From IMG/VR virus record IMGVR_UViG_3300031566_000099, positions 1 to 44,293 of that record: DNA of 44,293 nt; one strand, 5' to 3'. This DNA comes from a virus. Within the stretch, counting starts at the first letter, position 1. The number at the start of each line of letters is the position of its first letter. Below are positions 23,919 through 42,588 of the stretch, in pieces. The notes under the pieces were generated by a model. It was not told where the DNA came from. It saw nothing but the letters and a program-made list of their open reading frames with translations, and made no database searches. The position numbers and the translations under genes were made by a program.

Positions 23919-26900
23919 TGCCTAAGTTTGTCGAGGTGCCGTCCGTGGGTCTGATTGAGTTTCCAGACGACATGGATGAAAAGCAGATTACTGCTGCCAT
24001 CGATAAATCATTGATGGATCTGGCTCCGGACCTTCTAAGGGATCCGGCAGCTAAAGAGCAGTGGGCGAAGCGAACCACTTGGGAGGGAATGTCTGAGACA
24101 GAGCGGCTTCAGTCTGATCTTTCGAGAATGGGGCAGGGTGCTGGAAAGACAGTAGGGGTGGGGCTTAAAGGCGCTGCAATCACCGACATACAAAGCAGGG
24201 AAGCCTTAGCAAAAGGACAAATCCCTGAGTTTATGAATGTTGGGAAGCTTGCCTCCGATAAAATAAAGCTCCCAGCGGACTCCGGTTGGCGGACTGCAAT
24301 GGAAGGGCTTGGGAATCCACTCACCATTCCAACAAAAATTGGCGAAGCTGTTTTTAGAAAAGCTGGGGAGGCTTTAGGTCTTGAGAAGTACATGAGCATC
24401 CCTTTGGAGCAGACCAAAGACACTCAAGAGGAACGCCTGAAGCGAATTGAAAACCACCCGCTATACAAGACGGGTGAGAAGGTAGAGAAAGCAACCGATA
24501 AGGCGTTCCCTTCAATTCAGCCTGCCAACGTGTCCCGTCCACTTGGAGGAACAGCTGAAGCAGTTGGGAATATCGGAGTGATGTTGCCATTAATGCACGG
24601 TGCCCTAGCTGCTGGGTCAATGATGGAACTCGGGGACGCTTTCGAGGCCGAGATTGCACGTCAAAAGAAAGACGGGGAAGACGTGGACGTGGACATGGCT
24701 TGGAACAAAGCCGCATCATATTCCACTGTTGCAACAACTATCGAGATGCCTCTTGGAATAGGGCGCATTCTCAAAAAGGTTGGGCAATACTTTGGGAAAG
24801 AAGTAGCAGAAGAGGCTGGAAGGAGGATGGCCAGAGAAGGAGGCCCTGGATTATTTGGATACATCCGAAAGCAAGGGTGGGAAAGAGCAAAGGATTCAGG
24901 AGCAGGCTTTACTGAAGAGTTTACCCAACGGGTTTCACAGGATTTGATTGTAAGCGGAGAGGTTGACCTTGCTGCGGCTTGGCATGAGGGGATGATGGGC
25001 ATGGCTGGTCAGACCGTCATTGGAGGAGTTGCCCAAACAACTGCCGATCTTTCAAAAGCTGCTCAACGTGGTGCTTCCCGAGGTGGTTCCAAAGCCTCAC
25101 CATCCCGCGAAGGAACTCCGCCCAAACCCGGCGCCCCTCCGAAGGCTCCAGAACCGGGCGCGGGAGGGGTTCCTGCTACAGGAGGTCCAGCCGATGCTGC
25201 GTCTGCCGAAATGGAAAGGGAGTTCATTGCTGCTGCGAAGGAAGAGAATCCAGCACTTTATGGCAATGACACTACAGCCGTAGAGATCGACGAGACAGAC
25301 CGCGAAACCCATGCAGCAATTGTAGCGGCAGAAGGGCTAGAGCCCATGAGCGACGGGGCGACAGGGCCTACTACTGGCGTGCTTGGATTCCAAGATCCCG
25401 TAACCCAATCGTATATCCAGATTAACACAGCAGACGCGCAAAACCCCGAGCGCGTTAGAGCGATAGTTAATAACGGAAGGCTTAAATGGGCTGCTGCTGA
25501 AATTGAGGCTCTGGCCCAAGATAATATTGCTGGAAAGATAACTGAGACGGAGTTTGCAGATGCCGTGTATGGGCTGGCAGAGAAATTCCCCCCTTCTATC
25601 AAGGCCAAAGCTGAAAAGCTGATTGAGGTATGGCAGGACCAAGACAGTAGCGGGAAATCCGACCCCGAGACTTCTGGGGACCTTGTGGCTGCCTTGATGA
25701 ATTTGGCTGATGAGGGCATGGCGGAATCGGCTTTACCCCTACCAGGAGATAAAAAGGTCGAGGTTTTGTCTGACGGGCAACGACTCCAACTAGAGCAGGA
25801 AGCCCAAGCTCAGATTGATATTACCGAGGATCCGAAAGAGCAGGAGAGACTGGGCAACAAGCTGACGAACCTGAAGACGGAAATAGGCTTAATCCTCGAA
25901 GAATTAAAGGCCGAAAACCTAGGTATTGGGGCAAAACAGGCATTACAGAAGCAGTTGGCTGGGCTGGAGGAAAACATGCGGAAGCTCCGAGGAGCTAAAA
26001 AAGCCCCTGAGAGCCCTTCTAAGGTACCGGAACGTGCGGAGGCGCCATTACCCAAAAGTACGGACAAAACGGCAGCTGGGCCTAAACCCGGTGCAGGGCT
26101 TCCTATTATAGAGCAGACTGGGAAAAGTCCCGAGCTTTGGGCGTTGGTAAGGGCTGTAGCGACTATGCCAGCCTCGGAACTGATGAAATTGGCTGGGTTC
26201 AACCGGATCAACGACAAATTCGCCCAGCAAGCCACTTTGGAGCAGGCGCGGGAGGTTGTTAAGCTGGACCGTCAGATGGTGGCGCGGTCCCAGAAGCTGC
26301 TGGATGAGTTTCAGGATATGCAGGACAGGGGCGGGGTTCCGAATCCACAATGGATGGATGAGTTCTCTGCCGTAACAGGCACAGCCCAATTTTACCATGA
26401 GATCATCCAATACCTGACTGGCAGGGACCGAGAAGGGAAGCTTACCGGCAAAAATGAAGCGAAAGACTCCCCATATCCTGCTGATTGGAAGCCAAGATTC
26501 ACTTTGGAGGAACTGGGCCTTAAAACGAAAGGAGGTGAGGCAAATGGGTTGCGGAAAGAAACACAAAGGGAAGGGAAAAAAGAGGATGAAATGACTCCAA
26601 CAACAGCTGGGGCTGGCCGTCCACTGGCCCCAGCTGCTTCTGGTGAGGTTCCAGGGACAGGGGATAACCTTACTCCAGCAATCCGGTTTACGTTTAACGG
26701 AACAACCCGATACATCGTAGGGCCGTCTCACGCCGATGCGATTTCCCTTGGGGTGAAAACCTATGGGAAAGACTTCGTAGCCGATATGCCCGAGGAAGGG
26801 GGATACGGGTTCCTTCATAAAGGCAAATGGCAGACTCGGGACCAAGCTGGAAGAACGATTGGGCAAATGCGGGGGAAGGCTCCTGTTCCATACCTCACCA

Positions 26901-29900
26901 GTGAGGGGATGAAGCCAGCAGAACTGGCGCATATCACAGAGGCTCAACAATACGCAGGCCCTGCTGTTCCCGAAGAGGCACCAGCACTAGACGATTACCC
27001 ACTACTTACCGCGAAAGTTTTATGGCCGAAGGTAAAGGCCAGTATTCAGAAAAATGTATATGGAGCCCGCGGTGGGTGGTTTGTTATCTCGGATGGGAAC
27101 GGCGGAATTAAAGTCGTCGATGTAATTGGGCCTGAGACGACCAAAGAGGTTGTTCTTACTAAAAGCGATCCGAACTTTAGCAATCTCCCAGAAGGAGGCT
27201 ACACATACGAAGAAGCATTGAAGGCTCTGGCAAAAGCGGCAAAGCCTCCCGCGCCTGCCCCGCCTGCCCCGCCTGCCCCGCCTCCCGCGCCGCCTACAGC
27301 AGGGCCCTCTCAAGCTGAACTGGATGCCATCAAGGAGGAGCGAGACGCCATCATTCGTGAGTTGGAAGACACGATGGGTCCGGAAGGGTTAGGGGCAGGC
27401 GCCCCGATTGATCCAAAGGTTGCCGCATTAGCTGCAAGGCTGGCTCTAACGTATGCGAAGCAGGGCATTCTCGTTTTCAAGGAGTTTGCCGCGAAGGTAA
27501 AGGCAGATGCCCCTCAAATCTGGGATAGGATTAAGAAATACTTGGCAGGCGCCTGGACTACAGCGGGAGAGCTATATGAGGGGCTAGATGAAGTCAACAG
27601 GGCACAGGTTAAGGCGATATTGTCCGAAATCGACGGGGCGATCCCAAGACCAGAAGAGCAAGGCGAACGCGGGGGAATGGCTGGTCCGATTGATAATCAA
27701 TACATCGATGCGCTCAAGCGGCTGATGAAGAGCCGATACCCGAACATTCCTGACGCATTTTGGGATGGTCCCTACGAGAACGTCATCCGCACCGAGCTTT
27801 TGCCAGATTTGACTCCAGAGTTCAAAAGCATGTTCGTCAATCAGGCCGAACGGAGAGAACGGGAGGGAGGGTTCGTTATGGAAACGAACACTATAGAGAG
27901 TTTGGCTATCGAGGACACGGCGGCTGTCTACGACTACATCCTTGAGCTAGTCAACAATGGTTACGGCGGATTCGGTGTCTACGACGACACAACCGAAACC
28001 CTGAGGGTTGCCAGTAACGATAATGGCAGTGTCAGCCTTGCGGCGATCAAGGAGGATTACGCAGAAAATACAGAAGCGTACACTGGGTGGTCGAGCACTG
28101 TTGGTAAATTCCTTGATTTGACCGAGGAAGAGCTGAGGTCCGATTATTCCATCAACCTGATTTACACCTTTGCGAAGGATGTCCGTGCGGCTGAATGGGA
28201 GGCGGAAAAACAGCAGGAGGAGAATACACCAGGACCAGAATCCGACGACATCACCCAGCTGCTTGATTCTGACGAAGACAATCGCGCCAAATCTGGGCAG
28301 ATACGCCGCATGGCTAAAAAGCGGGATATCTCTGTTAAGGATATGGAGGAAATGATCGAGGCTGAGATAGTTCGTCGAGCCCATCTGATTGCTTCTAATC
28401 CTAACATCTCTGCTGAAGAGAAATTCAGTCAGTTGCGGGATGAATACGAACGTCAGCCACTGCTATCTTCGAGGACCGCAGGAAGCGTCGGAGCACAAGC
28501 TTACTCCACCCCATCCCCGCTTGCGTTTGCCAACGCCCACATGACTGGCGTAACTCCCACCGTTTCAGTCCATGACCGGACAGCAGGAAACGGGATGCTG
28601 ATGATTGGATCCAACCTTCAGAAGGGGAGTGCCAACGAGACAAACAAAGGCAGAGTAGAGAACTTGAAGAAGCTAGGGGTTCCGGAGGTGACAACACGGG
28701 ATGCTACTCAGCCCTATCCGAATCCACCAAAAGCCAACGTTGTTGCTCTCAATCCTCCATTTGGAAGTAGCCCGGTCCAAAACTATAACGGCTTTGGAAT
28801 CAGGCGCCTTGAGCACATCATCGCACTTCGCGGGTTGGAGTCCATGCAAGACACCGGACTCGCTTCGATCATCGTAGGAGCGAAGAGAGAAGAAGCGGAT
28901 CAAGGAAAAGGGGCTCAGTGGGTGTTTGAGAACTACCTCTACGGACATTTCAACGTTGTCGGTAATTTTGAAGTATCTGGGGAACTATACGGAAAGCAGG
29001 GGGCAAAATGGCCCGTCCGAGTTCTCATTGTTGCTGGAAGAAAGGCACAGCCTGTAATAGCCGACTTAGCTCCCAAACGTGTTGACAGGCTCAATTCTTG
29101 GCAAGAGGTTTGGGAAAGAGCAGAGAGCATACGAAATGCAACTGAATCCTACAGACGTAATTTGGGCTCCGAAAACAAACTCGGATTACCTCCTAGTGTC
29201 CCAAAACCCGAAACTGACACAGGACAAAGACCTGTATCTGCACCTACAGGCCAGCCTGCTCAACCGCCTGATCGGGGAGGCGTCGGAGGAGGAACTGGAG
29301 GATCAAGAGCGCCTACTGCGGGAGTCACTCCCACAGGCGGAGCAACTGTGGCTAAACCCGAAACCACTCCACGACCCGCAATTCGGCCAAAGACTCCTGC
29401 TACAGCCGGCGGAACTCGGAAGCCGACTGGCGGACTGGAAGGAGGGGATACAGGAAGCCCTACAGCAATCCCCAATGTCACACCCCCTAGCCCTCAGTCT
29501 GGCGCAAAGCCTGACACTCGAAAGCTGCCTCAGCCGCCTCCTATAAGCGAGACTGGCGGAGCGCAGGTCCAATATAATCCAGCTTCTGATGCTCGTGCGC
29601 TTGGCACACTTTCTCCCAGAAACATAGCCAACGGGATGAGAATGGCGCTTCAGGAGTTGCGCGATCGTCTTGGCAACAGCGATGAATTTGTTGCCAACCG
29701 TCTGAACATGATGGTTGAAGAGGTTAAATCCGTCCTAGCAGCAGAGCAAATTGACGGAGTTGCGCTTTCAATTGATCAGATGGAAAACGGAGATGCCGTA
29801 ATCATAGGAGATCAAACCGGAATCGGTAAAGGGAGGCAGGCCGCTGCGATAATCCGGTATGCCATTCTTAACGGCAAAATCCCAGTGTTTTTCACGAAGG

Positions 29901-32900
29901 ACCCCAAACTGTTCTCCGACATGTGGCGGGATTTGCAGGATATCAATACGACGATCAACCCGATGATTCTTGGGGGTGCTGGGAAAGCCGATATTGTGTC
30001 CGAGGAAGGAACAGTTATCAAAAAGGCGCAGAGCAGTCTCGCCAAGCAGCAGCGTCTATTTGCTAAAGCTAAAACTCGCGGAGGATTGTTACAGCAGGGA
30101 TTTGACTCTGTATTCCTAACCTATTCCCAAATTCGAGATGCGGGTTCAAAAGATCCGAAGACTGGCGCATACAGCAAACATGCACGGCAACAGTTCTTAG
30201 AGGATCTAGGGAACAACGAAGATGTAGTCCTTGTGCTAGACGAATCGCACGAGGCTGCTGGGGATTTGGGAACCTCAATGCAGGCGGCATTTATGGCAGG
30301 GGGGGAGATTGAACGCGGCAAGGGGAGATTTAAGCAGAAGATTGTATTGCCCGGAATTCTTAACTTGCCTGGAACAAAGCGGGGCCGCGGTGGGGTGGTT
30401 TACCTTAGCGCAACATTCGCAAAACGGGCCGATAACATGATGGTCTACTTCCGGACGGCTCTCAGTCGTGCAGCAGACAACATGCCTCAGATTGTTACGG
30501 CCCTTGCAAAGGGTGGAGTTGCGTTACAGCAGGCAGTCAGTGAATCCCTCGCAGCCGTTGGGCAATATATCCGCAGGGAACGTGACTTCTCTGACTCTAA
30601 CTATGAGATGAAACGCATTGAAGTTGCCGACATGCGTGAGCTTCTGTTGCAGGTCAATTCGATCACTGGAGTTCTAGCAGAAATCGTCAAGTTCTCAGAT
30701 AAAGTGATTGAAGCATCGAAGGGCATGGACTTTGGATCCACGGCAATGGGGGAAAATGAGGCTTCAATGTCTCCATTCGCATCGATTGTTCATAACCAGA
30801 TATCCCAGCTACTGCTAGCTGCCAAATCGGAGGAAGTAGTTTTGGAGGCTGTCAGAGTGTGGAAAAACGGGGAGAAACCAGTCATCGCCCTGATGAACAC
30901 TATGGAGAGCTTCTTGGATCAGTGGGTAACGGAAAACGATGTTAAAGAGGGGCAAAAAATCACCCTCAGATGGAATGAACTTGTAGAGTACGCACTGACA
31001 AGAACTCTTAGAGCCACAATCAAGGGGCCAAACGGTGAGCAAAGCCCGTTTGTAATCGATCCCAAAGACATAGGGCTGGATCTTGAATATAATCGCATCA
31101 GAGAAGCGGCTATGGATATTCAGTCTGCATTCCCAGTAAGCCCAATCGATTACATCATCCAGAGACTTCAAGAAGAAGGCGTCCCAACCGGAGAACTGAC
31201 GGGGAGAACCTCGGGGATCCAGTACACCGACTACAAGAAGAACAAGGGGACATATAAGAGGTTCCGGAAGGCTGATAAAAATGCACTCGTGAACGGATTC
31301 AACTCCGGAAAACTCGGGGGGCTTCTGTTAAATGCAAGCGGATCCACGGGGTTAAGCATCCATGCAAGTGAATCGTTCCCAGAAAGGCCGGTCAAACCGA
31401 GGAGAATGATCATAGCGCAGGCGGCATTGGATATTAACGTATTTGTCCAGACTCTAGGCCGAATCCTGAGAACAGGAATGATTCCTGGAGGCGCCAACTA
31501 CATGCACTTGGTTCTACCGTTGCAGGCTGAAATGAGGCCAGCAGCCGTATCCATGCAGAAGATGAAATCACTCAACGCGAATACTACAGCGGAGAGTGAA
31601 AATGCAGTCAAAATCGAAGCGGTTGACTTCCTGAATAAGTACGGGGATCAGGTTGTAGCAGATTATCTTGATGCAGATTTTGAGCTTCAGCAGAGGCTTA
31701 GTATTTACATCGAGCACCGAGAGGACGGATCAGCTATAGCCCCGCAGGATACGGCCAGAAAGTTCTCTGGAAGGCTTGCATTGCTTTCAGATGAAGAGCA
31801 GCAGCAAATCTATGGGCAGATTCTTCCCAATTACAAAGAACTCATAGAGCAACTGAAAACTACTGGTGAATACGACCTGGAAATAACAATTCACGATGAC
31901 TGGGATGCAACTCTGGAATCGGACATGGAGTTAGTCCCTGGAACGGATGAAACGAATTACCTAACAGCAAGCGTTAGGGCACAGCAATATGAAGTTACCG
32001 ATAACAGGCACGTTCCCACGGGCGAAGAAATGGAGGCTGAATTCGCAAAGAACCATGGAGATGCAGGCGAGCTTCAAGCAAAATGGGATCAATTCAAAAT
32101 CGATGTAGCTGTACGCTTCAACGCCATGCTGGAGCGACTACAAGAAGACATTGCGGAAATAGAAAACAGCAGCAAGGACCAGCGAGTTAAGGATGTAGAA
32201 TTATCAAAGCTGACCACTAGGAGAGATAAGCTTAAACAAAGGGAAAACAGTTGGAACTCCCTAGTAGAACGGCTTGAGCCTATGTTCAGAAGGGCTGGCA
32301 CTGTGATTTCGATACAAAACAATGAGCTACAAGAGTTGTATGAAGGAATGCTAGTCGGGGTTAAGCTTCCAGACATAAGTGATCGCCTTGTCTTGGCCCC
32401 AAGTGCATTCAAATTCCGTTACCTTGTAGATGCTCCGGGGGGCAGGATCTATGTTCCAGGATCTGGATTTATGGGAACCCAGTGGACGGAATCCTCCTCG
32501 TTCAAAACCACAGGCGACTTCAAGGGTGCCGCAAGAGGACAGAGATATAATCGCTGGTTTGTAACTGGAAACCCAATCAGGGGATATGCCGCTACTGACG
32601 GCAAAGGAAAGGTCGTAAGGTTCAACACTCGTGACGGACAAGTGGTAACTGCCATTAAGATGCCTAGCAATTGGGACATCTCGCAGCTTGCTAACGATCC
32701 AAGGAAACAGCTTCTGAATGGGGCAGCTGCGGATTCGTTCCTAGCCAATGGAACACAAATGGTCAGCATTGAAGCTGATAACGCACGGATTAACAGAAGC
32801 TCAAGTGGAGTATATGGGTTCTCAGTTCCATCTGCACGCAGAACAGGAGGCAAATACTATCTGGACCCGACCATACAGACGATAGTAGGGAACGGGGATA

Positions 32901-35900
32901 AAAGCCGAGGAGAGGCTAGGATCAGAAAGCAAGGCAATCGGATGCTGGCGGAAATCAGCAGGGCCATGATTCAGCCTTTGGTAGACCGGATTGGAGAAAT
33001 CGCAGGAACACGCCTCACGGTTGTAGGCGGGGATGCCAGAACTATAGACGATGTTGCCAGAGCGAACGCCAGCGCAAAGCCTGACGGGGACGGTGGCGGT
33101 GGCGGTGGAGGTGGCGGAACCCAAGCAAGGCCCCCAAATCCCGATGAGCAAAGATCCAGAACCCTCGAACAGCTGCTAGATGATGCCATCAGGGCAACGG
33201 ACTTTAACCAAGGTCGCGCAATGGAGGGCATTACTGGGGCTCCGATATGGATAACAAAAGGCGCCCTCAACTCAGCTTTAAGGGTTATTCGGCTGGCTGT
33301 CAGGGCAGGCAAGAGCCTAGCTCAAGCAATTCAGGATGGAGTTGAGCATATCAAATCATTGAATGACCCGAGATTCGATGCTGTGGTTACAAGGGACTTC
33401 TTCAACGAATACTTTTCCGAGGAACAAAGAAAAGAAGAAGAGAGGGTAAAGCAGGTACGTCTAAACAGGAGCAAGGCCGCTAAGAAAACAGCCGAGACAA
33501 AGCGCCGTCGCAAGCTGCCAGAAGCTCCGGATGTTGCAGGCAAAACGTGGCGTAGGCGAGTCGCAGCACTTTTCGGGAACCGAGATGAGAAGACCGCCTA
33601 TAGATCAGGCAAACTGAGCCGCTTCTTTTCTACCCTGATAAAGGGCAATTCCCTTGGAAAGTCCATGAACCAGGTGCGTGATTGGGGAATGGCGTTTCAA
33701 GAGTTTCTGGAGGAATCGGGGCGCCTTCTCACGAAGGACATGAACCTAGCCATAGCGCAGGAGTTCCCCAAGAGGGAGCATGATGCGGTAAGGCAACGTG
33801 TGCTGGACTTTCTGGAGGGGAGGGGAGAACTGAATGGAATAGGGGGTCCGCAAGTTCAGCTAGTTGCCGCAAAGATCAGGGCAAACATCGACAAACTTTC
33901 AAAGCTCTCTGTGGACAATGGTCTCGTTTCAAGCTCTATGGCTGAGACGTGGCTTGAAAACACAGGGATTTGGCTCCGCAGGACCTATCTGGCATTCGAT
34001 CCTTCGTCAGACTGGAACATGGATGCCCTTGAGCGCCGCAAAAACAAGGGGGACAGAGAAATAACCCGTATCTGGAATGCCTTAGAGGAATATCTTCAGG
34101 AAGCCTTCCCAGAATCTGATGAGGGAGAAATCAGGGTAATCATGCGCCAGCTGATTGATAGGCAAGAGGTGGAAGATATCATGCGAACAGGGGAAATGGG
34201 GACAGTCGGAACCGGAGACCAACTCGGGGTCAACATAGGGAGCCTGATCAGGCGTAAGGACATTCCCAAGGTTGTGCGCGATTGGATGGGCGAGATAACC
34301 GACCCGAATGCCAAGGTCCTACAGTCTTTCAAGTGGATGTCCCAATTTATCACGCGGAACTTGGTTCAGCGAAAGTTCGCCAGAATAGGGCTGGAACTGG
34401 GCTGGCTTAGTGAGAAGAAAACGGATCCTTACTCTGTAGAGCTTTATCCCAACACAAGTCGGCTAGCTCAGAAGATGGTCCCTCAATTGAATGAAGACGG
34501 GGAGGTAATCACAGATTCTGATGATAAGCCAATAATGGTCCCAGCATACACTCCGGACGGTGAGATTATTGCAGTGCCGCGTCAACGCATGGATCGGCGT
34601 TATGCCCCGCTTCACGGGCTTTATACCACAATCGAGTTTGCCAACGCTCTCAAGGAATACGAGACCCGAACACAAAACATGCTGGAGGTTGCCCGTCCAG
34701 AGAATGTTCTATGGAGCATATACAAGAGAGCGGTTTCATATTCCAAGCTGCTTCTTGTTGGTCTTAATCCCTACTCCTATCCGGTCAACGGGATCGGAGG
34801 CTTTGTAATGAGGCTGGCAGCAGGAGGGACGAGTCCGCTTCGACTGCGTAGGGCCTTTGATGCGGTAAGACTTGGTGAGCATCCAGTTGATGCATACGCA
34901 ACAAAGCGTGAACTAATGGCCCGAGCGGATTACCTGATGGCGACGAAAGCAGGCGTTACTGGCAAGGGAATCATAATGTCAGACGTACGCGCGAACCTGA
35001 GAAGAGATGCCGACAAGAACGTATTTGCCAGAACAATCGAAGCAGTTAAGAGAATCGCAGCAGACAGTCAGAACAAAAGCGGATACAGGCTGTTGATCGA
35101 GGCCATGGAAGATGCTCTAGCCAAGCCCGGAGACCTTGGCATCCGGTTCTTGGATGACGTGTACAGGGTTGATGCGTTCCTGTATGAGTTGGAGGTAATG
35201 TCCAAAGCCTATCCGGAAAGCACTCGGGAGGAACAGGTAGACATGGCCGCAGATAGAGCCGCGAACGTCTACCAAACCTATGACCGAGTGTGGCAACTGT
35301 TCCGCGGTCTCTCTAATGCAGGGATTCTGGGGACATTCGTGACGTTCAAGCTGGAACTGATGCGTAATACCTTCTGGATTGCTTACTACGCTGCAAAGGG
35401 CGCCGCCAGTGGCAACGCCGCACTGCGAGTAGACGCGGCAAGAAAAGGGGTAGGGCTGTCTGCAATGATATCACTTCCTTTCCTTGTGGCTGCGATTGCT
35501 AGAGACAAAACAGATACGGACGACGATGAAATGCTCGCCTTGAAAAGGTGGATTGTTCCCCCTTGGGACATGGCAGAGGTTATATTCCCAATTGAACGCA
35601 ATGGAACTGAATGGAGATATGTTCCAATGTCCTACCTGCTTCCTCATGTCGAAATGACACGGATAATGACAGCAGCCTATGACGCTTCAAGAACAGGGAA
35701 CCCACAACAGGCATTCAAGCAGGCGGTGCAAGGTCTCGCGTCTGATTATCTAGGTCCTGGAGTTCTGGGAGGAACGATTCTGGCATTCGCCAGCAACCAA
35801 CGTGAATCGGGTGGGCCAATTACCAGAAGAGAGGGAGCAGCTGGAATGGTAGACCGCATCAAATATGCAGCAGACAACCTCAAGCCCGGTTTCATGCGGC

Positions 35901-36289
35901 CAGCCAGAGAACTCTACTATGCAGCTACAGGCCAGAAGATGCCCTATAATAAGGAGCCAAGCGCAAGAGATGTTGGATTAAAGCTGCTGGGACTACGCGT
36001 CCGAAGGGTGGACGTGAAAGAGGACATGCGGTGGACGATGATGGATTTTGGGACAAAGTGGAGGGCTACGGCAGCAGACGCTACAATCAGGGTCCGGAGG
36101 GCTGGTGAAGGGTCTGATGAGGCTACAGAGGCAATGGAATACACCGTGAACAAGAAAGAGGAAATCTGGAGGATGTATCAGGAGTTTCGCAGAGACATGA
36201 TTTTACTCGGTGTAGAGGATAGGGAACTCGCCAGTGCCGAAAAGGAACAGCGAGTCCCCAATGATTTGCGGGATCCGGATGCGTATTAG
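23918..36289 (+). CDS. 4123-residue polyvalent protein: adenine-type methyltransferase plus strawberry-notch-like helicase
   Basis: Residues 1-35 (VEVPSVGLIEFPDDMDEKQI) are a start shared by many phage injected proteins. Residues 210-390 are helical and hydrophobic; 614-694 coiled coil; 1113-1130 proline-rich. Residues 1524-1715 are a methyltransferase with DRTAGNGMLMIG and NPPF at 1612-1615, the N6-adenine type. From 1885 to about 2560 lies a strawberry-notch-type helicase: Walker A GDQTGIGKG (1964-1972), DESH (2108-2111), and QTLGRILRTG (2511-2520). Residues 2750-3050 resemble the extension following such helicases. After a Gly linker (about 3059), the C-terminal 950 residues with two hydrophobic helices match PLxRFG/LPD38-type large polyvalent proteins. 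DarB-like protection of injected DNA is inferred. Confidence 0.85.
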   Translation: MPKFVEVPSVGLIEFPDDMDEKQITAAIDKSLMDLAPDLLRDPAAKEQWAKRTTWEGMSETERLQSDLSRMGQGAGKTVGVGLKGAAITDIQSREALAKGQIPEFMNVGKLASDKIKLPADSGWRTAMEGLGNPLTIPTKIGEAVFRKAGEALGLEKYMSIPLEQTKDTQEERLKRIENHPLYKTGEKVEKATDKAFPSIQPANVSRPLGGTAEAVGNIGVMLPLMHGALAAGSMMELGDAFEAEIARQKKDGEDVDVDMAWNKAASYSTVATTIEMPLGIGRILKKVGQYFGKEVAEEAGRRMAREGGPGLFGYIRKQGWERAKDSGAGFTEEFTQRVSQDLIVSGEVDLAAAWHEGMMGMAGQTVIGGVAQTTADLSKAAQRGASRGGSKASPSREGTPPKPGAPPKAPEPGAGGVPATGGPADAASAEMEREFIAAAKEENPALYGNDTTAVEIDETDRETHAAIVAAEGLEPMSDGATGPTTGVLGFQDPVTQSYIQINTADAQNPERVRAIVNNGRLKWAAAEIEALAQDNIAGKITETEFADAVYGLAEKFPPSIKAKAEKLIEVWQDQDSSGKSDPETSGDLVAALMNLADEGMAESALPLPGDKKVEVLSDGQRLQLEQEAQAQIDITEDPKEQERLGNKLTNLKTEIGLILEELKAENLGIGAKQALQKQLAGLEENMRKLRGAKKAPESPSKVPERAEAPLPKSTDKTAAGPKPGAGLPIIEQTGKSPELWALVRAVATMPASELMKLAGFNRINDKFAQQATLEQAREVVKLDRQMVARSQKLLDEFQDMQDRGGVPNPQWMDEFSAVTGTAQFYHEIIQYLTGRDREGKLTGKNEAKDSPYPADWKPRFTLEELGLKTKGGEANGLRKETQREGKKEDEMTPTTAGAGRPLAPAASGEVPGTGDNLTPAIRFTFNGTTRYIVGPSHADAISLGVKTYGKDFVADMPEEGGYGFLHKGKWQTRDQAGRTIGQMRGKAPVPYLTSEGMKPAELAHITEAQQYAGPAVPEEAPALDDYPLLTAKVLWPKVKASIQKNVYGARGGWFVISDGNGGIKVVDVIGPETTKEVVLTKSDPNFSNLPEGGYTYEEALKALAKAAKPPAPAPPAPPAPPPAPPTAGPSQAELDAIKEERDAIIRELEDTMGPEGLGAGAPIDPKVAALAARLALTYAKQGILVFKEFAAKVKADAPQIWDRIKKYLAGAWTTAGELYEGLDEVNRAQVKAILSEIDGAIPRPEEQGERGGMAGPIDNQYIDALKRLMKSRYPNIPDAFWDGPYENVIRTELLPDLTPEFKSMFVNQAERREREGGFVMETNTIESLAIEDTAAVYDYILELVNNGYGGFGVYDDTTETLRVASNDNGSVSLAAIKEDYAENTEAYTGWSSTVGKFLDLTEEELRSDYSINLIYTFAKDVRAAEWEAEKQQEENTPGPESDDITQLLDSDEDNRAKSGQIRRMAKKRDISVKDMEEMIEAEIVRRAHLIASNPNISAEEKFSQLRDEYERQPLLSSRTAGSVGAQAYSTPSPLAFANAHMTGVTPTVSVHDRTAGNGMLMIGSNLQKGSANETNKGRVENLKKLGVPEVTTRDATQPYPNPPKANVVALNPPFGSSPVQNYNGFGIRRLEHIIALRGLESMQDTGLASIIVGAKREEADQGKGAQWVFENYLYGHFNVVGNFEVSGELYGKQGAKWPVRVLIVAGRKAQPVIADLAPKRVDRLNSWQEVWERAESIRNATESYRRNLGSENKLGLPPSVPKPETDTGQRPVSAPTGQPAQPPDRGGVGGGTGGSRAPTAGVTPTGGATVAKPETTPRPAIRPKTPATAGGTRKPTGGLEGGDTGSPTAIPNVTPPSPQSGAKPDTRKLPQPPPISETGGAQVQYNPASDARALGTLSPRNIANGMRMALQELRDRLGNSDEFVANRLNMMVEEVKSVLAAEQIDGVALSIDQMENGDAVIIGDQTGIGKGRQAAAIIRYAILNGKIPVFFTKDPKLFSDMWRDLQDINTTINPMILGGAGKADIVSEEGTVIKKAQSSLAKQQRLFAKAKTRGGLLQQGFDSVFLTYSQIRDAGSKDPKTGAYSKHARQQFLEDLGNNEDVVLVLDESHEAAGDLGTSMQAAFMAGGEIERGKGRFKQKIVLPGILNLPGTKRGRGGVVYLSATFAKRADNMMVYFRTALSRAADNMPQIVTALAKGGVALQQAVSESLAAVGQYIRRERDFSDSNYEMKRIEVADMRELLLQVNSITGVLAEIVKFSDKVIEASKGMDFGSTAMGENEASMSPFASIVHNQISQLLLAAKSEEVVLEAVRVWKNGEKPVIALMNTMESFLDQWVTENDVKEGQKITLRWNELVEYALTRTLRATIKGPNGEQSPFVIDPKDIGLDLEYNRIREAAMDIQSAFPVSPIDYIIQRLQEEGVPTGELTGRTSGIQYTDYKKNKGTYKRFRKADKNALVNGFNSGKLGGLLLNASGSTGLSIHASESFPERPVKPRRMIIAQAALDINVFVQTLGRILRTGMIPGGANYMHLVLPLQAEMRPAAVSMQKMKSLNANTTAESENAVKIEAVDFLNKYGDQVVADYLDADFELQQRLSIYIEHREDGSAIAPQDTARKFSGRLALLSDEEQQQIYGQILPNYKELIEQLKTTGEYDLEITIHDDWDATLESDMELVPGTDETNYLTASVRAQQYEVTDNRHVPTGEEMEAEFAKNHGDAGELQAKWDQFKIDVAVRFNAMLERLQEDIAEIENSSKDQRVKDVELSKLTTRRDKLKQRENSWNSLVERLEPMFRRAGTVISIQNNELQELYEGMLVGVKLPDISDRLVLAPSAFKFRYLVDAPGGRIYVPGSGFMGTQWTESSSFKTTGDFKGAARGQRYNRWFVTGNPIRGYAATDGKGKVVRFNTRDGQVVTAIKMPSNWDISQLANDPRKQLLNGAAADSFLANGTQMVSIEADNARINRSSSGVYGFSVPSARRTGGKYYLDPTIQTIVGNGDKSRGEARIRKQGNRMLAEISRAMIQPLVDRIGEIAGTRLTVVGGDARTIDDVARANASAKPDGDGGGGGGGGGTQARPPNPDEQRSRTLEQLLDDAIRATDFNQGRAMEGITGAPIWITKGALNSALRVIRLAVRAGKSLAQAIQDGVEHIKSLNDPRFDAVVTRDFFNEYFSEEQRKEEERVKQVRLNRSKAAKKTAETKRRRKLPEAPDVAGKTWRRRVAALFGNRDEKTAYRSGKLSRFFSTLIKGNSLGKSMNQVRDWGMAFQEFLEESGRLLTKDMNLAIAQEFPKREHDAVRQRVLDFLEGRGELNGIGGPQVQLVAAKIRANIDKLSKLSVDNGLVSSSMAETWLENTGIWLRRTYLAFDPSSDWNMDALERRKNKGDREITRIWNALEEYLQEAFPESDEGEIRVIMRQLIDRQEVEDIMRTGEMGTVGTGDQLGVNIGSLIRRKDIPKVVRDWMGEITDPNAKVLQSFKWMSQFITRNLVQRKFARIGLELGWLSEKKTDPYSVELYPNTSRLAQKMVPQLNEDGEVITDSDDKPIMVPAYTPDGEIIAVPRQRMDRRYAPLHGLYTTIEFANALKEYETRTQNMLEVARPENVLWSIYKRAVSYSKLLLVGLNPYSYPVNGIGGFVMRLAAGGTSPLRLRRAFDAVRLGEHPVDAYATKRELMARADYLMATKAGVTGKGIIMSDVRANLRRDADKNVFARTIEAVKRIAADSQNKSGYRLLIEAMEDALAKPGDLGIRFLDDVYRVDAFLYELEVMSKAYPESTREEQVDMAADRAANVYQTYDRVWQLFRGLSNAGILGTFVTFKLELMRNTFWIAYYAAKGAASGNAALRVDAARKGVGLSAMISLPFLVAAIARDKTDTDDDEMLALKRWIVPPWDMAEVIFPIERNGTEWRYVPMSYLLPHVEMTRIMTAAYDASRTGNPQQAFKQAVQGLASDYLGPGVLGGTILAFASNQRESGGPITRREGAAGMVDRIKYAADNLKPGFMRPARELYYAATGQKMPYNKEPSARDVGLKLLGLRVRRVDVKEDMRWTMMDFGTKWRATAADATIRVRRAGEGSDEATEAMEYTVNKKEEIWRMYQEFRRDMILLGVEDRELASAEKEQRVPNDLRDPDAY
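27253..27279 (+). repeat. 3 x 9-bp tandem repeat encoding a proline-rich linker
   Basis: GCCTGCCCC is repeated perfectly three times (27253-27261, 27262-27270, 27271-27279) inside the giant gene, encoding the PAPPAPPAP linker at residues about 1113-1130. Slippage-prone; it separates two folded regions of the polyvalent protein. Confidence 0.7.
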
Positions 36290-37485
36290 GTCCAGATATC
36301 TTCTGGCACATCCTCAAAGTCAGTCCCTGTGGGGTCTGCGCTTGAATCCCCCCGCAGGTCCCCTCCTGGACCAGAGCCCTGAAGCTTACGGATTTTACCC
36401 TCAAGCTGTTTTACCTGCTCTTGCAGGAGGGTCTTTTCTCTAGCCATTCGCGGGAGTGCTGCGGCCCGATGCCTTAAATGAGCTTCGTAAACAACAACAT
36501 CCTCCGGTTTCATCTTCGAACGATCTCGGAAATAAGCATCGAAGGTTTCATAGCCCTTCTTGAGAAGTTCATTGCCCTCCTTATCCCCGTCTCTATCGGA
36601 ATACCAATCGGGCTTCTTGGTTTTGATATCAGTGTTAACACGATCCCAAAGCTGGTTTAATTCCTGACCCTGCCGGATCCGCTGGGCCGATGCTGATGTC
36701 TGCCGCTCCTGCCATTTCTCTTTCTCTTCCTCCATGGCAATCTCCATCTCTCCGTCTCTGCGTTGGAAATCGGTTAGAAGGGCCTGAACCCGATAGGCAG
36801 ATGCTCCAAACATGTCGATAACGTTCTGGTCAGCTTTCCCGTCTGCGTTCTGGTATAGCTTAACGAAGTCATCCCAAGAGGCTTTCCGTGTGGTTTCCTC
36901 TCCGGTGCTAGGATCCTCTTGCCGAACCGACAGGTTCTCAACCAACCGCCTAGCGGATCGGGCTGCGAAATCATAAGCCTTTTCATACTTCTCAACATAT
37001 TCCGGAGACTTCTGGAACTTCTCTGCCTGAAGCTCCCCGTTCAATCTCGCCAACTCTGCCTCCTTCGCAGCGAGTTGCTTCGTTATCGTTTCCACATCCC
37101 CGCCCTGAGTCTTACGGGCATCTTCTAGTTGCTGGGACAGTTCCTGTTCTCGCTTCCTAGCTGTTGCAAGCTCGGAATTTACAACCTCAAGACGCTTCCG
37201 GAAATCTTTGGGTAGCTTGGATGTTTCATCGCTAGGGGTTAGTGCGGGTTCTGGCGGATCTTCAGGAGTATCCGTTGGAGATGGATCCTTGGGTGGTAAC
37301 GGGGCCTCGCCAAAGATTTCACCAGGAACATCTTCAGGTGTAAAGCCGATCTCTTCTGGGTCCCCTTCGGAAGACTCCGATTCGGTTGTTGCGTCTTGTG
37401 GTCGTAAATCCGCGGCGGGACTCGGGCTCTCGGCAGGCTCGGAGGATTCTCCCGGTAGATCCGTGTTTAGTGGTTCATCTGGCAT
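36286..37485 (-). CDS. probable capsid scaffolding protein
   Basis: A 399-residue acidic protein starting MPDEPLNTDLPGESSEPAES after AAAAAGGAATAAGCC. Residues 1-95 are disordered and rich in Pro, Glu, Ser and Asp. Residues 95-165 are a coiled coil (LEVVNSELATARKREQELSQ, QLAAKEAELARLNGELQAEK). Then helical segments (YEKAYDFAARSARRLVENLS, MEIAMEEEKEKWQERQ) and a second coiled coil near the end precede an acidic tail. Acidic, helical, coiled-coil proteins of this size beside head genes are typically scaffolds, removed from the mature head. It is far from the capsid gene and convergent with the giant gene, overlapping its stop. Confidence 0.55.
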   Translation of the reverse strand: MPDEPLNTDLPGESSEPAESPSPAADLRPQDATTESESSEGDPEEIGFTPEDVPGEIFGEAPLPPKDPSPTDTPEDPPEPALTPSDETSKLPKDFRKRLEVVNSELATARKREQELSQQLEDARKTQGGDVETITKQLAAKEAELARLNGELQAEKFQKSPEYVEKYEKAYDFAARSARRLVENLSVRQEDPSTGEETTRKASWDDFVKLYQNADGKADQNVIDMFGASAYRVQALLTDFQRRDGEMEIAMEEEKEKWQERQTSASAQRIRQGQELNQLWDRVNTDIKTKKPDWYSDRDGDKEGNELLKKGYETFDAYFRDRSKMKPEDVVVYEAHLRHRAAALPRMAREKTLLQEQVKQLEGKIRKLQGSGPGGDLRGDSSADPTGTDFEDVPEDIWT

Positions 37486-37488: not shown

Positions 37489-37773
37489 TTATTCCTTTTT
37501 TGTTTTTGCGTCTCCTGGATGTTGCACCGATAGATTATGTATCAGTCCAACTCCTTCGGCTGTGAATGGTTTATCTTCATCTTCTGTCATCTCTTTTAGC
37601 GCATCAAGCGCCAGCTGGACTCCCTGTTGAATGCCTGGAGTCAACGTAGACGTATCCATGATGTGAGATTTCGTGAGTGAAACGCAAAGGTCCCACCAGC
37701 TTGAGGTCACTACGGCTGACAGTTTGTTCCGAAGCTTTTCGTTGTTATGAAGCTGCTGTTTTGATGGTGTCAT
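37489..37773 (-). CDS. hypothetical protein upstream of scaffold (94 aa)
   Basis: Begins MTPSKQQLHNNEKLRNKLSA, read from the ATG at 37773; an upstream in-frame TTG at 37797 is possible. It overlaps the end of the upstream glycosyltransferase gene by 29 nt. Helices: residues 8-30 (NNEKLRNKLSAVVTSSWWDL) and 50-70 (GIQQGVQLALDALKEMTEDE). The acidic/basic C-terminus is VQHPGDAKTKKE. No family is recognised. Its coupling to the scaffold gene (3-nt gap) suggests a head-assembly accessory role. The ribosome binding site is weak. Confidence 0.5.
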   Translation of the reverse strand: MTPSKQQLHNNEKLRNKLSAVVTSSWWDLCVSLTKSHIMDTSTLTPGIQQGVQLALDALKEMTEDEDKPFTAEGVGLIHNLSVQHPGDAKTKKE

Positions 37774-38761
37774 TGGGTGGTTTTGTATGTGGAACAATTA
37801 CAGATGTGTCTGGATTATACATATGAAAATCACGCAGATCGATCCCCGTGAACCATTCTGTAGTGGGCTCTCTTCGCACTGGGAAGAGACCTCCGTTAAG
37901 CATGTGCTGCCTCAGTTCTGAAATCGTCTTAAAATCATTGCCAAATGACTGCTCAAAAAATGTCTGCCCCTTATTCACTTCCAAAAGACGATGGCTTTTG
38001 TCCAATGGCGATTTGCCTGGATCATATCTTAACGGGGATTGCTGATTGTGATGGTCTTCCTCGCTCTCTTTAGTATGCATCTGTAGTGAGTACCGGAATA
38101 TATTGCCGCGTCTCGCCATGGTAGTTCCCATAACGCAGTCCTCATATCCCATTCCATCGCATAAAAGTTCTGGGAACCCGTTCACATTAAGAAGGTAATC
38201 AACAGGGCAAGCTATAGAGCAGCCGAACATCCACTGAGGAGAACACACTACATCGATATTAGGCTCTCCGCAGAGGAATCTTGGGTCTATCCCCTCCTTA
38301 TAAGCCTCAAAGTAGCAAATCGCACCTTGTTCGACTTTCAGCTTCAATACCTTTTGGAAAGAGCCACACAAAACGTAATCATCTGGCCCATCCATCAACC
38401 TAACTATTGGCTTTATCCAGTTGGGGCAGAGAACTGAAAGGTCATCAACAAAGGCTATGTATCCGTCCGGTGCAACAGCTAGGGCTGTGTTGCGGCAATT
38501 AGCGGCGGAGAAAAAATCTTGCTCCGTAAGGCGGAATCGCCCCTGCCAAACAGAAGGCTTTGGCTCAACCCACATCGCTTTAATGATTCTGCCGTATTTG
38601 GAAAGTGTCCTGTGTGTCCGTGACGGCGCCTGAAGATCCACGATAATAAGGGTGACATCAATGTGGGCAGGAAGAGACTCAACCTCTCGCTGTAGCGAAT
38701 CCAAGAACCATTCAATCTTTGGGTCACGCCGAGATGTGATATAGGCAATAGTCAGGTTCAT
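37745..38761 (-). CDS. family 2-like (GT-A) glycosyltransferase
   Basis: A 338-residue protein, beginning MNLTIAYITSRRDPKIEWFL and overlapping the FkbM gene upstream as ATGA. GT-A features: N-terminal Rossmann half with VTLIIVDLQAP, AANCRNTALAVA at residues 86-97, the FVDDLSVLCPNW motif (VDD at 105-107, the DxD position), and the acceptor half with MFGCSIACPVDYLLNVNGFP and GYEDCVMGTTM (ED at 207-208, catalytic base position). The C-terminus has segments such as KSHRLLEVNKGQTFFEQSFG. Predicted to transfer a sugar from an NDP donor to a glycan; part of the four-gene cluster 37745-42588. Confidence 0.75.
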   Translation of the reverse strand: MNLTIAYITSRRDPKIEWFLDSLQREVESLPAHIDVTLIIVDLQAPSRTHRTLSKYGRIIKAMWVEPKPSVWQGRFRLTEQDFFSAANCRNTALAVAPDGYIAFVDDLSVLCPNWIKPIVRLMDGPDDYVLCGSFQKVLKLKVEQGAICYFEAYKEGIDPRFLCGEPNIDVVCSPQWMFGCSIACPVDYLLNVNGFPELLCDGMGYEDCVMGTTMARRGNIFRYSLQMHTKESEEDHHNQQSPLRYDPGKSPLDKSHRLLEVNKGQTFFEQSFGNDFKTISELRQHMLNGGLFPVRREPTTEWFTGIDLRDFHMYNPDTSVIVPHTKPPNDTIKTAAS

Positions 38762-39513
38762 ATCGCCAAAGTCATCAATGTGCTGACTTGCTCTTGAGGG
38801 ATGAGCATTACGTCAAAACTCGTGTTCCATGGAAACAGCGAAATGAGTTCTTGTGGAGTTTCAACCCTGTGCTTGCCGTCCATGCTGACAACATCATAGT
38901 GCATCTGGTTGTAAATGTAGTAACACATTTCCTCAACACTATCCCCAATTAGCTGTGGCAGATAGCTTAACTCGAACTGGATTGGCGGCCTGTTGGCCTC
39001 AATGAGGGCTTCGCCACCGCGCAGAACCCTGAGTTCGTATCCGTCAACATCGATTTTCAGATAGTTTGGAGACCCGCCAGTATCAGAAGACTCCAGCATT
39101 TTGGAAATAAACCCGTCTATCGTGATGACAGGAACATTAAACGGCGGCTTATCAGCATACTCAACCGACTTGGCCTGCATTGGCCAACCGTTGGACAGTC
39201 TCGGTTGTTCGTTTGGAAGAAGGGTCCAACAGTTGAATACGTTAACATTTTCGAGTGTTCCGGGTTTGTCAGACAAGGCGGTGCGGTGGAAGGCAACTCT
39301 TGTGTCCCCTTCAAATCGCTTGGCAACCTTCTCAAACATGTTTGGAACGGGCTCGAAGGCAAAAACATACTCAGCACCCCAATCAAGAAAACACTGGGTA
39401 TAGCCACCTTCGTTAGCGCCTATGTCCATCGCTATTCGCGGCGTGGACTTGAACAGGCCTATGGCCAAGTCGTGCGAGTTTTTGCAAAAGTAAGGAAGGG
39501 TGTAGCCACTCAT
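38758..39513 (-). CDS. FkbM-family SAM methyltransferase
   Basis: A 251-residue protein. SAM motif I is MDIGANEGGYTQCF (residues 29-42), acidic loop FAFEPVPNMF (51-60), and FkbM signature YLKIDVDGYE (151-160) followed by IQFELSYLP. A typical FkbM size. It methylates hydroxyls, usually of sugars. It overlaps the glycosyltransferase downstream as ATGA and follows the class I methyltransferase upstream with a 4-nt gap. A second FkbM protein at 9820-10497 has the same motifs but little other similarity by eye, so the two seem to have been acquired separately. Confidence 0.82.
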   Translation of the reverse strand: MSGYTLPYFCKNSHDLAIGLFKSTPRIAMDIGANEGGYTQCFLDWGAEYVFAFEPVPNMFEKVAKRFEGDTRVAFHRTALSDKPGTLENVNVFNCWTLLPNEQPRLSNGWPMQAKSVEYADKPPFNVPVITIDGFISKMLESSDTGGSPNYLKIDVDGYELRVLRGGEALIEANRPPIQFELSYLPQLIGDSVEEMCYYIYNQMHYDVVSMDGKHRVETPQELISLFPWNTSFDVMLIPQEQVSTLMTLAI

Positions 39514-39517: not shown

Positions 39518-40168
39518 TTAGTTTTTCTGCCATACGCCGTAGTCGTCTTTTTCCTCTGCTGTTTCTCGCTGGACTACAAACCTATTTTCAAAGCCCATGC
39601 TCTCCAGTGTTTCAACTGCGGCAGCTGGCCCCCCGTTGTCCCATTGTAAATCGTCCATCACACAAAAGCTGCCAGCGTTCATACGACAGGCAAAGTTCAA
39701 AACATCTTTTATAGCCTGTTGTGAATGGTTTCCATCAACATGAAGCAGGCCATATTTGTTTCCTTCCTGTCGCAGCAGCGTGGAATAATCGTCTGATGTC
39801 ATTTGATGTGTTTCTACAACGTCATGTAATCCGAGTCCGGCAACCCAAGACTCAAAAACCCCCTTGGCGTTGTCATGTAAAATTTGCTGGCCCCACCACT
39901 TTTGATGATCTTCTGTTTGCCCCTGAACGCTGGCATCGCTTCTCCATGGGTCTACACCTATTACCCTCACATTCCCAACCGCTTTAGCAGCCAAAGCCAT
40001 TGGAATAAGGCTGCGGCCGGCAAAGATCCCCAGTTCCAGGACCAACGTTGGGCGCCTCACCATGATGATAGCCGCCAACGTTTGAGCCTTGGATATAGAA
40101 CACCATCCCGGAATCCTAGGAACCATTTCCGAGATTTTAGTAAATAGGTCCGTGTATTCGTTGTTCAT
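39518..40168 (-). CDS. class I SAM methyltransferase (Methyltransf_24/CmcI-like)
   Basis: A 216-residue protein starting MNNEYTDLFTKISEMVPRIP. Motif I is VLELGIFAGRSLIPMALA (residues 43-60), motif II GVDPW (71-75), and the metal or substrate motif is LLHVDGNHSQQAIKDV (141-156) with FCVMDDLQWDNGG following. The HVDGNH and DDLQW segments match the Methyltransf_24 family, including small-molecule and sugar O-methyltransferases such as CmcI-like and macrocin-type enzymes. It overlaps the giant glycosyltransferase gene's stop as ATGA. A second tailoring step in the same glycan pathway is likely. Confidence 0.72.
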   Translation of the reverse strand: MNNEYTDLFTKISEMVPRIPGWCSISKAQTLAAIIMVRRPTLVLELGIFAGRSLIPMALAAKAVGNVRVIGVDPWRSDASVQGQTEDHQKWWGQQILHDNAKGVFESWVAGLGLHDVVETHQMTSDDYSTLLRQEGNKYGLLHVDGNHSQQAIKDVLNFACRMNAGSFCVMDDLQWDNGGPAAAVETLESMGFENRFVVQRETAEEKDDYGVWQKN

Positions 40169-42588
40169 AGCTTTAGTTGGTCAGGTGATAGGTCGGCCAA
40201 CAAGCAGGAGCAGTCGTTCAGCCCTATAGCTGTTCTATATGCCGTTCCATTGGTGTGTATTTCCCAGTTACTAGGGAAAGCGACGTTAGCCTTATAGTGG
40301 GCACACGCATCCGGTTTTGGGGCTGCCGTGCCAGACATGATCGGCTCTTTGCTCATGCGGATAACCTTAAAAGGCGGAGAAGGTTCAAGCAGCAACGCCC
40401 CTATGTGGTATCTCCAAGGAGCATCGCCAAAATCGTTAATTGTTCTTGAATGGAACAGCCTGACTAGCTTCCCGCTTTCACGGTGCGGGAGTGGCTGTGT
40501 TCCCCCTCTTGGAGTTCCCCAAGCCCAAGCAACACCGTCCGTAATCCATTCTTTTAGAACCTTGTTCTTAGTGATCTTCCATAAAACAGTCTTCGGGTAA
40601 GTGGAATACCAACAGTAAAGGTCTTCACCATGGTCGAAAAAGATCCAGTTCTTCTCCATGTCCTGCCTTCTTGTGAAAATTACAGGGCTTGTAAGCTCCC
40701 ACACTCCTTCCACTTCTTCTGACAGGGACACTTTTGCATAACCGACTTGGCTCTTAAAAGGGGTTTGGGGATAGTTGCTAACTACAAACGACATGTGAAG
40801 ACCTCGTTCATGCCAAAACAATCGAGGGTCTTCAAAACTCTGTGGTTGGGTGCCAAATTCGGATAGAGAGCCAATGCTATGCTTTATCCATGCGTTGGTC
40901 CGGACGTTCCCACTGATGTCTAGGGTAGCTGCCGCCAAGTCTGTCCGATGATCCTTAAACCGATGGGCTCTGTACGCGAGCAACATCTGCGGGTTACCCG
41001 AAAAATTCAACCTCACTTGGGTTGGGTTATATCCGAAAGGGAACAGAGCCTCTGGGTTAATAACAAGTTTTCGAGGCAACGAAGAAGCACCGTAATACTC
41101 TGGTGTAACCCCATGCTCGGTGAACCAAGCCTCTCCAAGCTTGGAATTGATATTTCTCCAAGCTGTGTTGATCATACTAACTGGGGGTCCCATTGGTCGG
41201 AAAGTTGCCGAGTTGCTTTCCTGGCCTCCAGTGCTGCGAATATATTCTTTCAGCAATCGATGCCAATACGGATCGTTCCCCATAATAACGTCGGGAAGTT
41301 TGGATAAATTATCGCGGCACCATTTTGCTGTGAAGGTGAATAAATCAACGTCAGCATGTGGAACTCCCTCTTCTGCTTCAGAGTCTGCAACCCACCTTGT
41401 CCCCCATCCCAGAGGCTCGTATTCCTCAAACTGAACAGCCCATCTCCATCGGATAGAAGCGTCTGGGCGGGTAAGGACAATTATGTCGTCATCTTTCTTT
41501 GTGGCGAGCAATGCGGCACGCAGTACATCGCGTAAAAACGGGTATGCCTCTGAATCGGGTCCTTCATATTGTGTGTATGAATCTCGTCCAAACGCCCCTG
41601 AATCAATGCATACTTCTTTCCATCCCAACTCGCTGTAAACTTTTTCCCATGTTTTACGCGCCGATTTATGTCGGTGCCTAACCAGATCGGTGAACCCATA
41701 GCCGCACCACACATGATAGACGGATGCTGTTGACTCGCTAAACCTACAACCCGGTTTCCCAATCCTATAGATTGCTTGATAAATGTCAGGAATACGCTCT
41801 GGGCGATGGTAGCGTATATGTGCTGCATGTTGTGGCGACCAAGGACTTCCATGCCAATGCTTCGGGGAGTCCTGTATCAGAGCACACACTGGCAGTTTTG
41901 GAACAGCCCTAGCAAGATGAAGGGTTGCGGTATCAAGAGTGATTAGGCAGTGCGCCTTTTCGTATAGGCCCAATAGATCGTAAACCTGTTCGGCTTTGAG
42001 ACAGGATATATCCAGCAACTGAAAGTATTTCTTGTGCAGCTTGGCATTAAGATAATCCAACAACAGGTCTTTGTAGGGATATGGGGAAGTGTTCCCGCCA
42101 AGGTTAATCAGAATCAGCCGTTTGTTCTTCGAGATGGGGGGCAGGTCCTCAATCAGCTGTTCTTCGCGGCTTAAATCCCTGTTGTCGAAAACTAAAGGCA
42201 GGTTTAAGCGCCAGTCCTGAAGCTTTCCTGCCAACCGCCACGCCTCCTTCGCAAAACTCTCGGTATTGGGATCTCCCAGTTTCAGCCCTGCACGCTCATA
42301 GGCTTCTACCAGCTGATCCAGCTTAAACCCAGCAACCTGGCAAACCTTCAGATCCCTGTATTTCTCACCATGCTCCCTAACTGCTTCGCTGATGGCCATC
42401 CAGTTCCCAGTAAACTCTACCGGATCCACATAGCTAACTCCGGAAAGCACACCTATGAACTCAGAAGCGACTAAAAACGCCGGTTTCTCCTTCTTTTCTA
42501 CCCAGTGTTGGCGTAGTAGCGGGAGTAGATTAAGAATGTCTCCGGTTTTACCAAGGCAGACGTAAAGGGTCTGGTCTATTGCGTTCAA
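40165..42588 (-). CDS. triple-domain glycan enzyme: GT9-like + GT-A-like + GH130-like beta-propeller
   Basis: Read from TTG at 42588 (GGCGG before it; TTG at 42603 overlaps the previous stop and is the alternative), giving 807 residues. Residues 1-285 look like a GT9/heptosyltransferase: LYVCLGKTGDILNLLPLL, LILINLGGNTSPYPYKDLLL and TLDTATLHLARAVPKLPVCA. Residues about 290-520 are a GT-A-like module: VWCGYGFTDLVRHRHKSA, FGRDSYTQYEGPDSEAYPFL and DDDIIVLTRPDAS. From about 545 to the end is a five-bladed-propeller type region with SFEDPRLFW near residue 585, KNWIFFDHGEDLYCWYSTYP and a blade ending YHIGALLLEPSPP, as in GH130 phosphorylases. Both adding and remodelling a glycan by one polypeptide is inferred. 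Confidence 0.65.
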   Translation of the reverse strand: MNAIDQTLYVCLGKTGDILNLLPLLRQHWVEKKEKPAFLVASEFIGVLSGVSYVDPVEFTGNWMAISEAVREHGEKYRDLKVCQVAGFKLDQLVEAYERAGLKLGDPNTESFAKEAWRLAGKLQDWRLNLPLVFDNRDLSREEQLIEDLPPISKNKRLILINLGGNTSPYPYKDLLLDYLNAKLHKKYFQLLDISCLKAEQVYDLLGLYEKAHCLITLDTATLHLARAVPKLPVCALIQDSPKHWHGSPWSPQHAAHIRYHRPERIPDIYQAIYRIGKPGCRFSESTASVYHVWCGYGFTDLVRHRHKSARKTWEKVYSELGWKEVCIDSGAFGRDSYTQYEGPDSEAYPFLRDVLRAALLATKKDDDIIVLTRPDASIRWRWAVQFEEYEPLGWGTRWVADSEAEEGVPHADVDLFTFTAKWCRDNLSKLPDVIMGNDPYWHRLLKEYIRSTGGQESNSATFRPMGPPVSMINTAWRNINSKLGEAWFTEHGVTPEYYGASSLPRKLVINPEALFPFGYNPTQVRLNFSGNPQMLLAYRAHRFKDHRTDLAAATLDISGNVRTNAWIKHSIGSLSEFGTQPQSFEDPRLFWHERGLHMSFVVSNYPQTPFKSQVGYAKVSLSEEVEGVWELTSPVIFTRRQDMEKNWIFFDHGEDLYCWYSTYPKTVLWKITKNKVLKEWITDGVAWAWGTPRGGTQPLPHRESGKLVRLFHSRTINDFGDAPWRYHIGALLLEPSPPFKVIRMSKEPIMSGTAAPKPDACAHYKANVAFPSNWEIHTNGTAYRTAIGLNDCSCLLADLSPDQLKL

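Follow-up and report, generated by a model that had tools for sequence, protein, structure and literature searches.

The chlorovirus PBCV-1 encodes A111/114R, a three-domain glycosyltransferase for its capsid glycan (PMC7826918). Among phages, virus-encoded capsid glycosylation has been reported for the mycobacteriophages Che8 and Rita, as cited in PMC11256854. The -1 subsite mannose triad of GH130 enzymes consists, in BF0772, of Asn73, Asp131, and Asp344 (PMC4264767). In GH130 phosphorylases, three basic residues bind the phosphate; the hydrolases have Glu in their place, and the known GH130 hydrolases are secreted (PMC4599007). GT108 has a fold related to that of GH130 (PMC8950772). We analyzed an IMG/VR virus contig of 44,293 bases from an uncultivated phage (hereafter, "the window" refers to this whole stretch), in which a single gene is predicted to encode a GT9-like glycosyltransferase, a GT-A-like glycosyltransferase, and a GH130-fold propeller in one chain. 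We give about an even chance to the reading that this is a multidomain glycan-building enzyme, that the genes coupled to it extend and O-methylate its product, and that the likeliest acceptor is a virion protein, resulting in a decorated capsid.

The three-module gene is a single uninterrupted frame of 807 codons with zero internal stops. Its position, strand, length, and intact frame are exactly those given by a first-pass annotation made from the sequence, and all motifs quoted there are present in the protein. The TTG at 42588 is the likely start codon because homologues begin at the equivalent place (MSNQRIYIQ, MSKNTYIQ, and MSHTLHIC); upstream of it, the frame stays open to 42663. At the other end, the stop codon overlaps the ATG of the Methyltransf_24-type gene by 4 nt (ATGA).

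Table 1. Features of the three-module gene and the adjoining cassette in the window
Feature	Coordinates	Strand	Basis or remarks
Three-module gene	40165..42588	(-)	807 aa plus stop; TTG start; TGA stop at 40165-40167
GT9-like GT-B module, residues 1-285	41734..42588	(-)	Foldseek 3tov; hhalign
GT-A-like module, residues ~290-465	41194..41721	(-)	AlphaFold2 pTM 0.85; Foldseek, PDB and BFVD
GH130-fold propeller, residues ~520-807	40168..41031	(-)	Foldseek 5ayd; profile match 5b0p, E=2.6e-11
Methyltransf_24-type methyltransferase	39518..40168	(-)	PF13578, E=1.3e-13; ATGA-coupled; syntenic in L003, L042, L044
FkbM-family methyltransferase	38758..39513	(-)	PF05050, E=6.7e-18
GT2-like (GT-A) glycosyltransferase	37745..38761	(-)	PF00535, E=2.5e-4, slightly below cut-off; syntenic in L003, L042, L044
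Proline/acid-rich coiled-coil-like protein, putative scaffold	36286..37485	(-)	3' end of cassette; kept in L003, L033, L042

With the 807-residue protein alone as query, Pfam gave only a subthreshold GT9 match, PHROGs gave phrog_28262 (E=0.07), and a sequence search of the PDB gave a marginal match to the GH130 enzyme Uhgb_MS (E=0.011). Profile searches of the PDB with the first two domains yielded no meaningful match; both were resolved by structure search alone. The full-length AlphaFold2 model, for which the input alignment had 17 rows, had a mean pLDDT of 80.5 and a pTM of 0.54, indicating that the domains are reliable and that their packing is not. GH130 phosphorylases and hydrolases were its top Foldseek matches in the PDB (best 5ayd, E=4.6e-11; TM-score by target length up to 0.64), and the GT9 enzyme 3tov_A was also matched (E=2.3e-8). 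As modeled, the C-terminal part has the five-bladed beta-propeller fold of GH130, judged from the overall match rather than from a blade count. The structure prediction proposed in the first-pass annotation was run, and it yielded the three folds (GT9-like GT-B, GT-A, and GH130 propeller) in the order and with the approximate borders suggested there.

Single-protein motif scans of viral contigs returned nothing, and relatives were reached only with a degenerate GH130 motif and two-sequence alignments. Scanning with a degenerate version of FEDPRLFW located one phage in which the gene for a stand-alone propeller adjoins a head protein gene. A two-sequence alignment of this propeller and that of the 807-residue protein then pulled 29 loci, and further scans of this kind gave L033, then L037 to L039, and then L042 and L044. 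Propellers of the relatives were 21-33% identical to that of the 807-residue protein. The same three-part chain, with its modules in the same order, was present in L003 and L004, apparently one phage in two metagenome assemblies. The L003 copy is about 37% identical to the window's protein end to end, and downstream of it lie the same methyltransferase, GT2-like, and putative scaffold genes. Other relatives are split or partial: in L033 and L042 the GT9-like and GT-A-like parts share one gene and the propeller is encoded by the next, with an ATGA overlap; in L044 the GT9-like part is fused straight to the propeller, the middle domain being absent; and L037 to L039 have the first two parts only. 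The gene splits and the L044 deletion mark the module borders, and the split and partial forms indicate that the parts are real and separable and that more than one fused arrangement arose. Neither the propeller tree nor the tree of the GT9-like domain resolved whether the fused or the split form is ancestral.

The separate propeller genes of L033 and L042, with their ATGA overlaps, raise the question of whether the fusion is a sequencing or assembly artifact joining neighboring genes, since the gain or loss of one base could be enough to join or separate the genes. A frame-joining artifact was rejected, and we regard it as almost inconceivable: the fusion recurs at substantial divergence in L003/L004, recovered from two assemblies (possibly of one phage), and L044 contains a different, independent fusion. 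The 807-residue protein and six relatives or pieces, used as tblastn queries, had no credible match among 50,697 isolate-phage records, and no relative of the protein was found in plasmids. GTDB genomes had no match for the GT9-like/GT-A part or for the GT-A part in scans with exact short motifs, which distant relatives could escape; the GH130-like part, whose alignment contains no sufficiently conserved motif, was left out of these scans. The earlier remark that no phage protein is known to have this domain order therefore holds for the isolate phages and fails for IMG/VR, where L003/L004 have it. Within the collections searched, the three-part combination occurs so far only in metagenomic phages.

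Residues 1-285 have, in the model, the GT-B fold of GT9. Comparison by hhalign with an E. coli WaaF/WaaC/WaaQ profile gave 78.5% probability (E=1.7e-5), against 0.1% for a GT4-type profile used as negative control; together with the Foldseek match to 3tov, this bears out the GT9-like transferase first proposed. The module resembles the GT9 heptosyltransferases (WaaC/WaaF; 3tov) in its GT-B fold, N-terminal GD motif, D-[TS]-x-x-x-[HQ]-L motif, and profile match, and differs from them in falling below the Pfam cut-off (PF01075, 11.1 bits versus 22; E=0.24) and in being fused to further modules. G16-D17 of the GD motif (D17 codon 42540-42538) and D219 of DTATLHLA are invariant in seven relatives, and the His following D219 alternates with Gln among them.

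Modeled alone (residues 287-506), the middle domain reached a pLDDT of 84 and is predicted to have the GT-A (nucleotide-diphospho-sugar transferase) fold. Foldseek matched it in the PDB to the chondroitin synthase 9o4g (E=4.2e-6) and to 2p73, a PBCV-1 capsid glycosyltransferase (E=4.1e-5) and the closest solved viral match; in BFVD, it matched many phage glycosyltransferases. TM-scores were modest (about 0.4-0.55), supporting a GT-A fold, as originally annotated, and no particular family. The canonical DxD metal/nucleotide motif is lacking: its counterpart is degenerate (R374-P-D376), and the same position reads NxD in L037 to L039 and RxS, with the Asp lost, in L042. Catalysis by this module appears doubtful because RxD replaces DxD, the Asp is gone in L042, and the whole module is absent from L044; the module may be inactive.

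N521, D587 (codon 40830-40828), H713, and D792 of the propeller are invariant across the phage set, as is the Lys-Asn pair K646-N647. Profile alignment to 5b0p and 7fip places N521, D587, and D792 at the -1 subsite mannose triad of GH130, and the Asn/Asp/Asp triad, including the catalytic Asp, is on this alignment retained. The adjacent E586 corresponds to the Glu that precedes the catalytic Asp in the GH130_NC group. The 807-residue protein did not match PF04041 (GH130) at the gathering cut-off, which was passed by its relatives in L003 (26.5 versus 26), L044 (30.3), L017 (27.8), and L005 (39.1). The Foldseek match to 5ayd and the retained triad uphold the assignment of a GH130-like propeller.

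We take the phosphate-binding positions to include the R/K before V/I-G-x-G (5b0p, 7fip, and 9fj8) and the His of the YHG motif. The first of these is Thr692 in the 807-residue protein, Pro in L003, Glu in L033 and L044, Gln in L042, and Arg or Lys in several stand-alone propellers. H713 of YHG is kept and the third position has no reliable alignment, so that three basic phosphate-binding residues were not found. A canonical GH130 phosphorylase was rejected because of the Thr at one of these positions. Judged by the residue at this position, the propeller of the 807-residue protein appears GH130-like with neither a phosphorolytic nor a hydrolytic role indicated. The first-pass annotation had suggested that the chain both adds and trims sugars; on that reading, the GH130-like part would be a genuine phosphorylase or hydrolase of glycosides. 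The sugar-adding folds were recovered; for trimming speak the GH130 fold, the catalytic Asp, and the Glu of L033 and L044, as found in GH130 hydrolases (PMC4599007). Against trimming stand Thr692, the missing PF04041 match, an N-terminus that is a GT9-like fold rather than an export signal, and the biosynthetic rather than degradative genes around it, and we consider it very unlikely.

A second possibility is that the propeller is a sugar-binding or structural module and that catalysis is confined to the GT9-like part, perhaps together with the GT-A part. The incomplete phosphate clamp is consistent with this, as are the stand-alone copies that, in L002-type phages, directly follow the major head gene, as a decoration protein could. 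Invariance of the triad, K646-N647, and His713 at so low an identity is, however, what would be expected of an active site, and a noncatalytic propeller seems unlikely to us. The stand-alone gene of L002 (L002:2375-3382 (-); about 20 similar IMG/VR loci, L006 to L028) follows an HK97-type major head protein/protease gene (phrog_617, E=3.8e-171) and encodes Arg at the phosphate-binding position and a conserved C-terminal tail. In L005, a stand-alone propeller gene lies between scaffold-like and capsid-like genes. L002-type propellers could be head-associated enzymes or decoration proteins.

The genes that accompany the modules make or modify sugars in every cassette examined. In the window, the GT2-like gene overlaps the FkbM gene by 4 nt. 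The L033 cassette includes a DegT aminotransferase, a PglD-type acetyltransferase, and a GT25 (L033:10471-12475); that of L044 has GT25-like, GT2-like, FkbM, and weakly GT11-like genes; GT25, GT32-type DXD glycosyltransferase, DegT, and GNAT genes surround the L017 copy; and L037 and L038 encode a GDP-mannose dehydratase and a C-methyltransferase. The DegT, PglD-type, and GT25 genes of L033 suggest an N-acetyl amino sugar in the glycan of that phage. In L037 to L039, a second gene, beside the GT9-like/GT-A gene, repeats the GT-A part ahead of a Stealth-type domain (PF11380, E=2.7e-6 in L037; GT-A repeat plus Stealth_CR2-type protein at L037:7992-9476 and L038:7992-9458). The second half of the L038 protein matches phrog_7999, of unknown function (E=2.9e-21).

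In L003, L033, and L042, a capsid-like and a scaffold-like gene, both conserved, flank the cassette; in the window, the capsid-like gene and the cassette are separated by the ends of the contig. For this phage group, both labels are inferred from position and conservation, no family match having been found, and the putative scaffold at the cassette's 3' end likewise matched no family. Elsewhere in the window, positions 9191-10497 (+), 3' of the capsid-like gene, encode a small ORF that is GT-A-like by motif alone and an FkbM methyltransferase (PF05050, E=1e-12), and positions 23918-36289 (+) encode a giant protein of 4123 aa with a Strawberry-notch-type helicase (PF13872, E=1.6e-23; PF13871, E=1.5e-8). 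The C-terminal part of the giant protein has distant relatives among the proteins encoded upstream of the cassette in L037 and L039. The structural proteins of the window that were tested had no convincing PHROG or Pfam match, and the isolate-phage records contained no match to its terminase-like or capsid-like proteins, suggesting a poorly sampled phage group.

Capsid-gene synteny is possibly compatible also with host surface glycans as the acceptor. The cassette might then alter a host surface polysaccharide, for receptor masking or superinfection exclusion, with the enzyme adding and capping sugars on LPS or capsule. GT9 is the family of LPS heptosyltransferases, and the GT25 and Stealth-type partners seen in relatives are typical of LPS or capsule synthesis. 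However, we noticed neither a membrane anchor nor a lipid-carrier or O-antigen-type gene in the cassette, and the adjoining capsid-like and scaffold-like genes suggest late expression; a role on the host surface is in our judgment rather improbable.

We therefore return to glycan building for the virion. The three modules form one intact chain; two divergent phages have this fusion, and six others have the modules as coupled or partial gene sets. The biosynthetic company of the cassette points to glycan building and not to trimming. The GT9-like module, and perhaps the GT-A module too, would transfer sugars from nucleotide-sugars. The propeller would bind a manno-configured sugar and most likely form a bond to it rather than degrade a polymer, acting as a synthase or transferase as in GT108 or Uhgb_MS. 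The products of the Methyltransf_24, FkbM, and GT2-like genes would then extend and O-methylate the product. A virion protein is the likeliest acceptor because the cassette adjoins putative capsid and scaffold genes in related phages. More specifically, and only tentatively, the propeller may have turned into a biosynthetic transferase within an assembly-line chain that adds one sugar after another to the capsid, the sugars being probably manno-configured and O-methylated afterwards.

As a transferase, the propeller would belong with the rare glycan-building enzymes of propeller fold, such as GT108. Like the GH130 mannoside phosphorylases and hydrolases and GT108, it has the propeller fold and the -1 mannose triad, and E586 is as in GH130_NC; unlike it, those known members stand alone, and its clamp for phosphate is incomplete. 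Phage gene clusters for glycan synthesis and for the head repeatedly include GH130-fold propellers, and the natural fused, split, and deletion variants make the role of each module directly testable. PHROG 28262 (765 positions, unknown function), only weakly similar to the 807-residue protein, matches the GH130-like part at profile positions 541-641 and, at positions 299-344, the GT32-type glycosyltransferase adjoining the L017 copy; by these profile matches, it is probably another phage fusion of a transferase with a GH130 fold. The gene analyzed here combines its domains in a new way and belongs to a known kind of system, the multidomain viral glycosyltransferases, to which it adds a third, unexpected fold. 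As in PBCV-1 A111/114R, one viral chain carries three glycan-synthesis domains of about 300 aa, and the middle domain matches the fold of a different PBCV-1 capsid glycosyltransferase (2p73). The likeness to A111/114R is one of domain description: its three domains are all ascribed to glycosyltransferases and its virus infects an alga, whereas here the third module is a GH130-fold propeller and the virus is an uncultivated phage.
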